Under the pieces are notes generated by a model that did no database searches, was not told the origin of the DNA, and saw only the letters and a program-made list of their open reading frames with translations. Of a DNA stretch of 64,000 bases, positions 5,629 to 35,470 are shown piece by piece. This DNA is from Lachnoclostridium sp. An169. GTDB lineage: Bacteria > Bacillota > Clostridia > Lachnospirales > Lachnospiraceae. Within the stretch, counting starts at the first letter, position 1. Each line of letters starts with the position of its first letter. The stretch covers positions 62,001 through 126,000 of the forward strand of contig NZ_NFKT01000004.1 in NCBI RefSeq assembly GCF_002160525.1. The letters run 5' to 3'. A program made the translations under genes and the position numbers.

Positions 5629-5664
5629 GGCGGCGGGAAATTCAATATTTCCCGCCGCTTTTTC
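5629..5664 (+). terminator. terminator after ptsI
   Basis: GCGGCGGGAAAT and ATTTCCCGCCGC form a 12-bp stem with a short loop, followed by TTTTT. Confidence 0.9.
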
Positions 5665-5696: not shown

Positions 5697-5725
5697 TTGA
5701 AAAGGACAGGACCCTGTGATAATAT
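5697..5725 (+). promoter_or_regulatory. promoter of the radical SAM/DUF4130 operon
   Basis: TTGAAA (5697-5702), 17 bp, TAATAT (5720-5725). The LexA-like box starts 7 bp downstream of the -10, over the expected transcription start. Confidence 0.75.
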
Positions 5726-5731
5726 GAGAAC

Positions 5732-5745
5732 AGAACATATGTTCG
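5732..5745. promoter_or_regulatory. LexA/DinR (SOS) box
   Basis: AGAACATATGTTCG contains the perfect palindrome GAACATATGTTC (5733-5744). This matches the Gram-positive LexA site pattern CGAAC-N4-GTTCG in all core positions. It sits just after the -10, where a bound repressor would block initiation, and about 20 bp before the start codon of the predicted DNA-repair pair. I saw no second such site in front of a gene in this window. Confidence 0.8.
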
Positions 5746-5763
5746 AATTGAGAGGTGAGAGAT

Positions 5764-7218
5764 ATGTCTGATGAGATTATGCAGAGGGTTCAGAGCCGGG
5801 CGATGGATACCATGAAGAACATAAAGGACAGCATACAGTGTGGAACGAAGCATATTGTACAGACGGGATCGGCGGGGCGGAAGAATGTGTATGAGAAGCT
5901 GCGCATCCTGTCTGATGCGGCAAAGTATGATGTGGCGTGTACGTCAAGCGGCGTGGACAGGAAGGGGGACGGCACCGGTATGGGAAACTGCAGCAGCGCC
6001 GGGATCTGCCATAGTTTTTCCGCTGACGGGAGATGTATCTCGCTGCTCAAGATCCTTTATACGAATGAGTGTATATTTGACTGCAAATATTGTGTCAACC
6101 GTTCGTCCAATGATGTGGAGCGTACTTCCTTCACACCGGAGGAAGTGTGCAGCCTGACCATGGAATTTTACCGGAGAAATTACATCGAAGGACTTTTTCT
6201 GAGCTCCGGTATCCTGAAAAGCCCGGACTATACGATGGAACAGATCTATGCGACTCTGTACCGGCTTCGTCATGTCTGTAATTTCCAGGGATACATCCAT
6301 GTCAAGGCAATTCCGGGCGCGGATCCCCGGCTGATTCAGATGACCGGCTATCTTGCGGACAGGATGAGCGTAAATATGGAGCTTCCCACGGCTGAGAGCC
6401 TGCGTCTTTTGGCGCCCCACAAGTCACGGAAGAATATCCTGGCTCCCATGAGGATGGTGCAGGAAAAGACGAAGGAAAACCGGCAGGAGATCACGGTTTA
6501 CCGGAATGCACCCCGTTTTGTCCCGGCGGGGCAGAGCACACAGATGATTATCGGAGCTACACCCGAGACAGACTATCAGATTCTGAATGTTGCGGAAGCA
6601 CTTTATAAGAAGTTTGAGTTAAAGAGGGTGTTCTATTCGGCATTTGTCCCGGTCAATGAGGATAAGGCGCTCCCTGCCCTGAAAGAGAGCGGTCCGCCGC
6701 TTCTGCGGGAGCACCGTCTGTACCAGGCGGACTGGCTGCTCCGTTTCTATCATTTTGAAGCGGAGGAACTGCTGGACGAGGAGAATCCCAATTTCAATAT
6801 TTTTCTCGACCCGAAGTGCTGCTGGGCGCTGAAACACCTGGATCAGTTTCCGGTGGAGGTGAACCGGGCGGATCACCGGATGCTCCTGAGAGTTCCGGGA
6901 ATCGGGTACAAGTCGGCGTCGAGGATAGTGAAGGCAAGGAGAATGGGAAATCTTCGGTTTGAGGATCTGAAGAAGATGGGAGTTGTTCTCAAAAGAGCGC
7001 TGTATTTTCTTACCTGCCAGGGAAAGATGATGTATCCGACAAGGATGGATGAGGACTATATCACAAGAAATCTTCTCAATACAAAGGAACGCCTGCCGGA
7101 GGGAGCGGACGGAATGACATACCGTCAGATGTCGCTGTTTGATGACATGAATTTTACGATGCAGGCGGGAAATTCCCCGGCGAAAGGGCCGGGGCTTCAT
7201 GTGGAAAGGATGGGATAA
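5764..7218 (+). CDS. radical SAM protein, putative DNA modification/repair (TIGR03916 type)
   Basis: A 484-residue radical SAM enzyme. The [4Fe-4S] motif is Cys103-x3-Cys107-x2-Cys110 (CIFDCKYC). A helix-hairpin-helix DNA-binding motif (LLRVPGIGYKSASRIV) lies in the C-terminal third at about residues 376-391. This combination, together with the downstream DUF4130 gene, identifies the family annotated as a putative DNA modification/repair radical SAM protein linked to uracil-DNA glycosylase-like proteins; its reaction is not established. The ATG at 5764 follows AGAGGTGAG; the GTG at 5755 lies within that site. About 45 residues precede the usual start of the conserved region. The promoter carries a LexA box. 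Confidence 0.88.
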   Translation: MSDEIMQRVQSRAMDTMKNIKDSIQCGTKHIVQTGSAGRKNVYEKLRILSDAAKYDVACTSSGVDRKGDGTGMGNCSSAGICHSFSADGRCISLLKILYTNECIFDCKYCVNRSSNDVERTSFTPEEVCSLTMEFYRRNYIEGLFLSSGILKSPDYTMEQIYATLYRLRHVCNFQGYIHVKAIPGADPRLIQMTGYLADRMSVNMELPTAESLRLLAPHKSRKNILAPMRMVQEKTKENRQEITVYRNAPRFVPAGQSTQMIIGATPETDYQILNVAEALYKKFELKRVFYSAFVPVNEDKALPALKESGPPLLREHRLYQADWLLRFYHFEAEELLDEENPNFNIFLDPKCCWALKHLDQFPVEVNRADHRMLLRVPGIGYKSASRIVKARRMGNLRFEDLKKMGVVLKRALYFLTCQGKMMYPTRMDEDYITRNLLNTKERLPEGADGMTYRQMSLFDDMNFTMQAGNSPAKGPGLHVERMG

Positions 7219-7222
7219 GGCG

Positions 7223-8002
7223 ATGAAGCAGGTCTATATCTGTACGGATACGATGACGGGGCTCGGCTCCGCGCTCTATGACGCCTGGAAGGAGAGCCGG
7301 GATAAAGAAGCGGGAATCGAACTGCGGGGAAAAGTACAGCAGCAGCTTTTCTGTGAATATAAGACTGTGGTGGAATGTGAGGACAAAGCGGTTAAGATTG
7401 CAGGAATGATCAAACGGCATCTGGGTTACAATGCATACTGGGATATCTGCAATGCACTTCTTTCGGATGACAGTGCCAAGGGAGAGGCGGTGTTTCATGC
7501 CATGCAGGAAGCAAGACGGATCCCGGACAGCAGAAAGATCATGGAGCATCTGGGCCATCCGGATGTGGCGAAAGTGTTTGAACTGAGCAGGAGAGTGTCC
7601 AACGAGGCGCACAGATACAAAGAATTCATCCGTTTCCGTGAACTGAAAAACGGCGTCCTGTTTTCCGAAATCTCGCCCAGGACCCAGATTCTGACCTGCA
7701 TTGCAGAGCATTTTTCCAACCGTTTTCCGTTGGAGAACTGGATGATCTGCGATAAGACCCACGGGATCTCTCTTGTCCATCCTGCCCGGGATAAGTGCCG
7801 GCTGGTGTGGGGAGTGGAACTGAATCCGGAAGCGGCAGGTGCGGTTTCCGACGCGGAAGAGGCATATGAGACGCTCTGGCGGGTGTTCTTTGAATCCATC
7901 TCCATCAAAGAGCGGGAGAATCCCGGGCTGCAGCGGAATATGCTTCCCCTGCGGTACCGGGGAGACATGCCGGAATTTTGGACGGACAGGAGCGAAAGTT
8001 AA
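7223..8002 (+). CDS. DUF4130 protein (TIGR03915), partner of the radical SAM protein
   Basis: 259 residues, beginning MKQVYICTDT and ending with the family signature NMLPLRYRGDMPEF. In other bacteria this family occurs beside, or fused to, uracil-DNA glycosylase-type domains and next to the TIGR03916 radical SAM enzyme, hence the database name probable DNA metabolism protein. No catalytic residues are established. The start at 7223 lies 4 bp after the radical SAM stop codon; a start at 7199 overlapping it is possible but gives an atypical N-terminus. Translational coupling and joint control by the LexA-box promoter are likely. Confidence 0.87.
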   Translation: MKQVYICTDTMTGLGSALYDAWKESRDKEAGIELRGKVQQQLFCEYKTVVECEDKAVKIAGMIKRHLGYNAYWDICNALLSDDSAKGEAVFHAMQEARRIPDSRKIMEHLGHPDVAKVFELSRRVSNEAHRYKEFIRFRELKNGVLFSEISPRTQILTCIAEHFSNRFPLENWMICDKTHGISLVHPARDKCRLVWGVELNPEAAGAVSDAEEAYETLWRVFFESISIKERENPGLQRNMLPLRYRGDMPEFWTDRSES

Positions 8003-30500: not shown

Positions 30501-31735
30501 TGAGCTTCTCTTCTGTACTGAAGCGGCGTGACGCCGTATTTATGTTTAAATGCAGTCTGGAAATGGCTCTGGCTTGAAAAACACAGGCAGCTGCTGATGG
30601 AACTGACCGGGCGGTCCGTATAGCGGAGCAGCTGTCTGGCCTCTTCCATCTTGCAGCGCGTGATAAAGTCTCCGATGGAGAACCCCAGTTCATTTTTAAA
30701 GTAAGAGGAAAGGTAGCTGCGGCTGAAGCCCATGTATCTGGCCACATCGGAAACGGTGATATGGCTTGCCGTATTCTTCTGGATATAGCGGACCGCCTTC
30801 ATAATGATGCTGTCGGATGTGACCGGAGTCTGGACTTCCTGAACCCGCCGGGCAAACGTGTATACGATTTTCCCCATCAGTTCGTTGAGCGCATCCGGGT
30901 CGGAGATCTGCTCGGCGGTCTGAATAAAGGTATCCGAGAGCTGGAATGCCGTATCGGAATCAAGCCCCCCTTCGATGGCGGCGCGGGTGGACAGAGTCGT
31001 TGTAATGATGATGTTGTTCTTAAGCTGGCGCAGGGAAGTGGGACCGGTAATTCCGGCATGCAGACCGGATTCATTGATCATGATATCCTGAAAGCTGTCC
31101 GGTCTCCCGGTACGCACCAGTTCCATGAGCACCGTTTCCAGTTCGTGTGAGTTATTGTGCTCTTCGGCAGATTTCTGCTCATAAAGTTTCTCCGTACTCT
31201 GCGCTGTCACTGCGACATCGTCGCTTAAGACGGCAGGCAGCACATCTTTGACGGAACGTTTTTCCTGGTTGACACAGTAATTGATAAATACAAGCTTCTG
31301 CAGAAAAGAGTTCAGGGAAAACTGGGGAACCATCCGGAAAAAAGACCGGAGGGACGACTGCGCTTCCTGGCGTACGCCGTAATCGTCAAACAGGCGGTGC
31401 AGTTCAGATTCCGAATAGGGGGTCAGGTTCACGGGACCGAAGATAAGATAATAACAGCCGCAGAAGTCTGCTCCGGACAGACTGCGGCTGTTATCCTGCG
31501 CAGAAAGAGCAGCGCGGACACAGCCGAAATATACGCCGTAAGCGGTGGAAAGATAAGAGATGTGCTCCGGGCTGTCCAGAAGGCGGCCGGTATATTTTTC
31601 CGGGATCGGGAAAGATTCCATCCAGTCCGGACAGGCGGACAGAAGACATCCGTCCGCGTCCAGGAGGCAGCAGGGCACTCCGGAGTCCGGGTACAGCATT
31701 TCCAGAAAATCTATAATGTCTGAAACTTTATCCAT
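30470..31735 (-). CDS. AraC-family transcriptional regulator
   Basis: 421 residues. A long N-terminal sensor region (about 1-310, possibly PocR-like with Cys-containing segments such as GADFCGCYYLIFGPV) precedes a double-HTH AraC domain (about 315-410: ITVSDVARYMGFSRSYLSSYFKNELG ... SISSCLCFSSQSHFQTAFKHKYGVTPLQYR). It lies in the centre of the rhamnoside block and transcribes toward the fusion gene. Direct repeats before the GPH transporter gene are candidate binding sites. Likely effector: rhamnose or a rhamnoside, by context only. Confidence 0.9.
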   Translation of the reverse strand: MDKVSDIIDFLEMLYPDSGVPCCLLDADGCLLSACPDWMESFPIPEKYTGRLLDSPEHISYLSTAYGVYFGCVRAALSAQDNSRSLSGADFCGCYYLIFGPVNLTPYSESELHRLFDDYGVRQEAQSSLRSFFRMVPQFSLNSFLQKLVFINYCVNQEKRSVKDVLPAVLSDDVAVTAQSTEKLYEQKSAEEHNNSHELETVLMELVRTGRPDSFQDIMINESGLHAGITGPTSLRQLKNNIIITTTLSTRAAIEGGLDSDTAFQLSDTFIQTAEQISDPDALNELMGKIVYTFARRVQEVQTPVTSDSIIMKAVRYIQKNTASHITVSDVARYMGFSRSYLSSYFKNELGFSIGDFITRCKMEEARQLLRYTDRPVSSISSCLCFSSQSHFQTAFKHKYGVTPLQYRREAQKEGLRKAES

Positions 31736-34567: not shown

Positions 34568-35470
34568 ATGAGTGAGATCCACACGATGATATTTGATATG
34601 ATAATGAAAGGGAGAAGCGTATACGATCCGGATAACCGGCCTGATTACACGGCGAGAAGAAAGCAGGAGGAGGAAATGTCCGCCCAAAGCCCTCTTCCGG
34701 AAGGCACAGAATTCAGCGTCGGGGAGCTTGGAAACGTGCCTGTGGAATATATCTCATGCGGCAAAAACCGTACGGACCGGATTGTTTTCTACATTCATGG
34801 CGGCGGATTTGTGAGCGGAAGTTCCAGACAGAGCAGGAACATTACCGGATATGTGGCTGCGGAGCTTGGATTTAACGTAATATCCGCAGACTACCGGCTG
34901 GCGCCCGAACATCCGTTCCCGGCGGGGGCAGAAGACTGTTTTGCCGTCTACCGTGCTCTTCTGGAGGAGTATCCTGCGGAGAAGATAGCTTTTATGGGAG
35001 GAAGCGCCGGGGGAAATCTGGTTCTTTCTGCCGCCCTGATGGCGAAAGACAGGGGGCTTCCCCTTCCGGCGTGTATTGTAACGGCATCCCCTACTCTGCA
35101 GTATACAAAGGACCTTGAAAGTTATAAGAAAAATGCCGGGACAGACTGTATGATTACAAATCTGGCGCAAGAAGTAAAGGCAGAATACTTTCAGAGCAGT
35201 GAGAGCAATGTATTGGAGAATCCCTACGGCGCTCCGCTGTCCGGTGATTTTCACGGATTCCCGCCAGTACTGGTTAATGTTTCCGGGTCTGAGGTGCTGT
35301 ATGACGATGCGGTTCTTCTTGACCGCAGACTTAAGGAACAGGGCGTCAGGACAGTATTTCTTCCCCGCAGCGGCATGATGCACGGATACATCTTCCTTCC
35401 GGTACTGCCGGAAGCGCAGGAAGACCTGAAAGCAGTACAGAGTTTTATCAGTGAGTGTTTTGGAGAATAA
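34568..35470 (+). CDS. alpha/beta-hydrolase, HSL-type esterase
   Basis: 300 residues. The oxyanion-hole motif HGGG is in YIHGGGFVSG (near residue 78), the nucleophile serine in GGSAGGNL, and the likely Asp and His in SEVLYDDA and MMHGYIF. No signal peptide, so it is cytoplasmic. HSL/AraC-island esterases next to glycosidases commonly remove acetyl or other acyl groups from sugars. AAGGAGG precedes the ATG; the rhamnosidase genes follow at 42 bp, indicating an operon. Confidence 0.88.
   Translation: MSEIHTMIFDMIMKGRSVYDPDNRPDYTARRKQEEEMSAQSPLPEGTEFSVGELGNVPVEYISCGKNRTDRIVFYIHGGGFVSGSSRQSRNITGYVAAELGFNVISADYRLAPEHPFPAGAEDCFAVYRALLEEYPAEKIAFMGGSAGGNLVLSAALMAKDRGLPLPACIVTASPTLQYTKDLESYKKNAGTDCMITNLAQEVKAEYFQSSESNVLENPYGAPLSGDFHGFPPVLVNVSGSEVLYDDAVLLDRRLKEQGVRTVFLPRSGMMHGYIFLPVLPEAQEDLKAVQSFISECFGE

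Follow-up and report, generated by a model that had tools for sequence, protein, structure and literature searches.

The 64-kb window examined here, from Lachnoclostridium sp. An169 (contig NZ_NFKT01000004.1, positions 62,001 to 126,000), contains a two-gene operon encoding a radical S-adenosylmethionine (SAM) protein and a partner with the domain DUF4130. An earlier note on this DNA had placed the pair behind a LexA box and proposed that DNA damage switches it on. The promoter, the box, and the two genes it described are all present at the positions listed below.

5629–5659, plus strand: intrinsic terminator of the upstream gene, with a 13-pair stem and a T tail
5697–5725, plus strand: sigma-70-like promoter TTGAAA-17-TAATAT, with TG ahead of the -10 element (9 of 12 matches)
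5732–5745 (core 5733–5744), no strand: putative LexA operator AGAACATATGTTCG, recognized by its sequence and kept in relatives
5750–5759, plus strand: probable ribosome-binding site, read from sequence
5764–7218 including the stop codon, plus strand: radical SAM gene, TIGR03916 (rSAM_link_UDG), 698.7 bits
5938–6036, plus strand: three extra conserved cysteines, C59, C82, and C91 (184/185, 185/185, and 185/185 rows)
6070–6093, plus strand: radical SAM motif C103-X3-C107-X2-C110 (185/185 rows)
6850–6978, plus strand: helix-hairpin-helix (HhH) region, residues 363–405 (PF12836, 26.4 bits, slightly under the cut-off; structural match to Tex)
7223–8002, plus strand: TIGR03915/DUF4130 partner gene (234.7 bits for TIGR03915, 164.4 bits for DUF4130)

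The terminator stands between the upstream gene and the operon and sets the two apart. The GAAC-N4-GTTC/T palindrome of the operator core sits between the -10 element and the start codon, and a 4-base gap separates the radical SAM stop codon from the DUF4130 ATG. The gene identities given in the earlier note are also borne out, with curated cut-offs of 343.5 bits for TIGR03916, 112.25 for TIGR03915, and 27 for DUF4130; the HhH motif it named corresponds to the PF12836 match. The Pfam profile PF04055 stays under its cut-off (25.3 vs. 29.5 bits, E 2e-5). Despite this shortfall, NCBIfam and fold evidence support membership in the radical SAM superfamily. TIGR03916 matches occur in 180 of 299 family genomes (169 over the cut-off) and in 90 of 196 genomes of the class (72 over the cut-off), and protein matches extend to records from Bacteroidota, Pseudomonadota, and Fusobacteriota.

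The operator is conserved in front of homologous operons. Within Lachnospiraceae, 110 loci were compared: the window's own, 29 other best loci from the 299 family genomes, and the best 80 of 174 genome-collection candidates. In the 300 bases before the residue aligned to window residue 41, GAAC-N4-GTTC is exact in 65 loci, carries one mismatch in 43, and carries two in 2; the same loci supplied 2200 control windows, of which 0.7% hold an exact copy and 6.7% a copy with one mismatch. Once identical proteins are removed, 63 of 103 upstreams retain an exact box and 101 a box with at most one mismatch. Two hundred rounds of dinucleotide shuffling of these 103 upstreams gave means of 0.34 exact matches and 8.6 with at most one mismatch (maxima 2 and 19). 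Six other palindromes gave 0–1 and 3–13, respectively, and a spacer of 3 or 5 instead of 4 gave 0 and 4. The arms of the box are near-invariant across the family upstreams, and the flanks are variable. The enrichment of the palindrome before homologous operons, which the earlier note had suggested looking for, is therefore clear.

Outside the family, the class sample comprised 74 places, namely 67 canonical loci and 7 short divergent paralogues. The box is exact in 6 of these places and deviates at one position in 50, at two in 13, and at three in 5, against 0–1 exact and 3–10 with at most one mismatch for five control palindromes. Boxes with at most one mismatch precede 53 of the 67 canonical loci and three of the seven short paralogues, and at least one box occurs in 25 of the 31 class families when the paralogues are included. 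Many of the one-mismatch sites have the GTTT form, which, according to the excerpted text of PMC4234289 (the articles cited below are likewise represented by excerpts), also precedes Clostridioides difficile lexA and recA.

In Alphaproteobacteria, a different operator occupies the same place. Eleven loci, picked among the 40 listed of 158 plasmid records, all carry GAAC-N7-GAAC or GTTC-N7-GTTC within 350 bases upstream, a direct repeat that we take to be the alphaproteobacterial LexA repeat. Counted across all 57.4 kb of these loci, the repeat occurs 13 times with the N7 spacing, 3 times with N8, and never with N6; two other repeats of N7 spacing occur 2 and 0 times. The operon thus appears to have been kept under LexA while the operator changed, which suggests function rather than inertia. 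Because the box is kept in the family and the class, and the LexA repeat in all 11 alphaproteobacterial loci, the pair would represent a long-standing SOS gene set. Eight further loci were read. A Firmicutes-type site is present at the three clostridial ones among them, in one case with AAAC in place of GAAC, and also at a Spirosoma locus, where the AAAC-containing match is perhaps due to chance. None of the tested motifs was found at the single loci from Bacteroides finegoldii, Acinetobacter, and Fusobacterium, and a search of the 2.1-Mb Fusobacterium record gave no lexA match. A faecal record filed as phage (L205), which may be bacterial DNA, carries the pair with a LexA-like site that has one mismatch (AAAC for GAAC).

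Within the Lachnoclostridium sp. An169 genome (4.85 Mb), the bare palindrome is weak evidence alone: GAAC-N4-GTTC occurs 65 times, compared with 60 for the reversed control, and three times in the window, where 0.95 would be expected. A strict pattern built on the window operator, MGAACAWAYGTTYK, occurs at ten places, compared with 0 and 1 for the reversed control. Two of these sites are at lexA and one lies 25 bases before recA. Another is found ahead of a short open frame just before a Y-family polymerase gene, a second gene of this polymerase family has two at its start, and one is that of the window operon itself. The two further palindrome matches in the window lie at 30680–30691 and 34907–34918, with about one expected by chance. 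Separately, a cluster of LexA-like sites is common to lexA and a divergently oriented gene (L001:2160-2660) that encodes a small LysM-like protein, perhaps a YneA-type division inhibitor.

These comparisons strongly support LexA control of the pair, as the earlier note had supposed, and judged from sequence the operon is very probably under SOS control. The rival view holds that the operon lies outside SOS control and that its palindrome either arose by chance or serves a different regulator. It can appeal to the near-chance frequency of the bare palindrome in the genome and to its count in the window. However, conservation before homologues is far above that of shuffled upstreams and control palindromes, the strict pattern also marks lexA and recA, and the alphaproteobacterial repeat takes the place of the box in every locus of that set. 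This explanation is scarcely tenable, and the comparisons appear to have nearly refuted it already.

The radical SAM protein carries more conserved cysteines than the three of its defining motif. In an alignment of 185 canonical rows, two of them the window protein, every row has C103, C107, and C110. Of the three cysteines N-terminal to the motif, C82 and C91 are likewise invariant, and C59 is missing from a single row. LipA, MiaB/RimO, and TYW1 likewise have three cysteines N-terminal to the radical SAM motif. The window protein lies outside these sequence families, and the spacing of its extra cysteines presumably differs from theirs. C59, C82, and C91 probably hold a second Fe-S cluster. 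The structure model of the protein is weak (mean predicted local distance difference test score, pLDDT, 65.2) and consists of a generic barrel with a Tex-like HhH. The short TIGR03916-like paralogue of the class sample (L179-L185, e.g., L183:589-1764; about 310 bits) is without the N-terminal cysteines; of five representatives, none has C59 or C82 and only one has C91.

DUF4130 is a nearly constant companion of the canonical protein. It matches in 108 of the 110 family loci, the other two of which stop at a contig end, and it directly follows the radical SAM gene in 62 of the 67 canonical class loci. In four of the other five genomes it lies elsewhere, once about 4 kb downstream and once about 250 kb away. 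The six searched genomes that hold only the short paralogue gave no TIGR03915 match. C59/C82/C91 and DUF4130 thus largely travel together. All 180 rows of DUF4130 share four residues, R137, F138, F164, and R167. Structure prediction gave a good model of this protein (pLDDT 89.3). Its best structural matches, at low TM-scores, are to chains of PAP phosphatase, RecJ, archaeal RecJ, and Cdc45; NrnA and family II pyrophosphatases rank lower. Of these, RecJ, NrnA, and Cdc45 are presumably DHH-DHHA1 phosphoesterase-fold proteins. Sequence profiles give no support for a RecJ/Cdc45-like fold (0.2% vs. 65% for a positive control), and in residues 1–127 no Asp or His reaches 60% across the 180 rows, so DHH-type metal ligands are not seen there. 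If the fold is nonetheless correct, DUF4130 would be an inactive, Cdc45-like DNA holder.

Two different neighbourhoods link DUF4130 to uracil-DNA glycosylase (UDG). The Paracoccus denitrificans locus (L187) resembles the window in its TIGR03916 family protein, its DUF4130 domain, and its upstream LexA-type site, but there DUF4130 is fused to UdgX (TIGR03915 at residues 12–233, TIGR03914 at residues 235–467), whereas in the window it is free and matches TIGR03915 only, with no UDG-family domain. A UdgX-family gene follows the radical SAM gene in all nine annotated loci among the 11 from Alphaproteobacteria; the scan for a fusion covered P. denitrificans only. In genome G470 (L272:1326-4087), DUF4130 comes after Hsp33 and a protein in which UDG and O6-alkylguanine methyltransferase (MGMT) are fused, in a cluster about 250 kb from the radical SAM gene. 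From these two neighbourhoods, deaminated or alkylated bases are favoured as substrates, and deamination or alkylation may tentatively be taken as the lesion class. On an Azospirillum plasmid (L190:4312-5454), a TnpB-family gene on the opposite strand lies between the radical SAM and UdgX genes.

Taken as a whole, the explanation we favour, with a probability of roughly 0.7, is a LexA-repressed, damage-induced pair that carries out radical processing of a base lesion. LexA would bind 5732–5745 over the expected transcription start and block transcription, and DNA damage would release the operon through RecA-stimulated cleavage of LexA. Damaged DNA would then be the target of both proteins jointly: the radical SAM protein would bind DNA through its HhH, and a 5'-deoxyadenosyl radical made at the C103/C107/C110 cluster would attack the base lesion. 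DUF4130, as a nearly obligate partner, probably serves to bring the DNA, or an intermediate of base excision, to the enzyme. A deaminated or alkylated lesion might then either be reversed directly or be tailored so that it can be excised. Radical repair of a lesion, or a base modification, can reasonably be inferred as the reaction. A more specific proposal, which we regard as speculative and unlikely, is that a radical SAM enzyme with two clusters requires DUF4130, a catalytically inactive RecJ/Cdc45-like holder of single-stranded DNA, to undo or tailor deaminated or alkylated bases. C59/C82/C91 and DUF4130 would then function as a single unit, both being missing from a paralogue in which the radical SAM core and HhH are retained, and the pair would define a new class of SOS-induced repair.

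Several observations weigh against the favoured explanation. Fourteen of the 67 canonical class loci have no box with at most one mismatch, and some of the one-mismatch class matches are chance occurrences, to judge from the control palindromes (3–10 of 74). Three of the ten strict sites are away from clear SOS promoters: one lies about 585 bases upstream of uvrB, from which a DUF1287 fragment separates it, one about 118 bases before a GntP-family permease gene (L265:1502-1513), and one, probably by chance, inside a ParB-like gene. The canonical genome G486 gave no DUF4130 match, and its locus ends at a contig end. In G470, G430, G323, and G353, DUF4130 is apart from the radical SAM gene and no exact box precedes it; the one-mismatch boxes found there look like chance matches in coding sequence. 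C59 and C82 fall in stretches of the model with pLDDT below 50, and C91 in a block with a mean of 50. The excerpts of two papers on C. difficile LexA (PMC4234289; PMC4689574) do not name the pair, and C. difficile itself was not searched for it.

Other activities would also be compatible with SOS control. The radical SAM protein might be a spore photoproduct lyase-type enzyme that directly reverses a pyrimidine photoproduct, as DUF4130 has been tied to SplB-like radical SAM proteins (PMC3765255), SplB is SOS-controlled in several species (PMC8565304), and SOS control and the HhH would suit such a role. SplB, the spore photoproduct lyase, is like the window protein a radical SAM protein of DNA repair. 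The two are nevertheless set apart by family, by the HhH, by the extra cysteines, and by the DUF4130 partner; the NCBIfam and Pfam scans of the window proteins did not list SplB, and no direct SplB comparison was made. Since TIGR03916 is a separate family with three extra conserved cysteines, many of its holders are, going by their record titles, gut isolates or gut metagenome genomes with little exposure to ultraviolet light, and the UDG links indicate deaminated or alkylated bases, photoproduct reversal seems quite improbable.

Alternatively, the pair could be a DNA modification system that serves protection or tolerance instead of repair. It would introduce a modified base where DNA is damaged or single-stranded, and an auxiliary cluster might supply the sulfur or carbon. 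With a poor radical SAM model, no known modified base in this setting, and an SOS timing that suits repair better, this option is rather doubtful as well. A role in supporting SOS mutagenesis or translesion synthesis rather than in lesion chemistry, in which DUF4130 would bind single strands as a Cdc45/RecJ-like factor and the radical SAM protein would act as a redox-sensitive regulator, is very unlikely. It draws on the low-scoring fold match to RecJ/Cdc45-type proteins, on the operator type that the operon has in common with two Y-family polymerase genes, and on the term mutagenesis-related that PMC3765255 applies to DUF4130. However, the catalytic radical SAM cysteines are kept in 185 of 185 rows, and sequence profiles give the fold no support. 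For LexA-controlled radical processing, SOS membership across two different LexA motifs tells when and under which stress to look, and the cysteines and UDG links tell what to assay. Direct radical repair of a lesion not caused by ultraviolet light, if true, would widen the known DNA repair repertoire.

The novelty claimed in the earlier note is overstated. NCBIfam already names both families as putative DNA repair or modification proteins. On the TIGR03916 reaction, no report was found in the open-licence literature; full-text searching there by the family and domain names turned up one paper, and searches for UdgX with radical SAM and for UdgX with the SOS response returned nothing. We take COG4277 to be TIGR03916. 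A proposal of LexA control for the pair and the link among DUF4130, radical SAM proteins, and UDGs were already in print in 2013. LexA control of CAC3343-CAC3344 in Clostridium acetobutylicum was predicted in that year, with stress microarray support (PMC3828012). Like the window operon, that pair consists of a radical SAM gene with the same NCBI family name and a gene of unknown function behind a predicted LexA box, the likeness being one of family name and description, not of sequence. The tie of DUF4130 to SplB-like radical SAM proteins and UDGs likewise dates from 2013 (PMC3765255). A COG1573-COG4277 operon in Bacteroidetes has predicted SOS control, and for Verrucomicrobia and Alphaproteobacteria the same source cites an SOS-controlled system based on UDG (PMC8565304). 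That operon and the one in the window both consist of two genes with predicted SOS control, and the annotated alphaproteobacterial loci pair TIGR03916 with a UdgX-family protein, but the window partner, unlike that operon, is without a UDG domain. What is new here is the breadth of SOS control, the three near-invariant cysteines, the second DUF4130-UDG neighbourhood, and the DUF4130 fold lead with its low TM-scores. Unspecified radical SAM proteins appear in the Gram-positive core SOS regulon (PMC7739468) and in a Streptomyces LexA table (PMC9380542). Genes with the TIGR03916 family name are up-regulated on desiccation in Acinetobacter (PMC13130816) and in coculture in Fusobacterium (PMC9848294).
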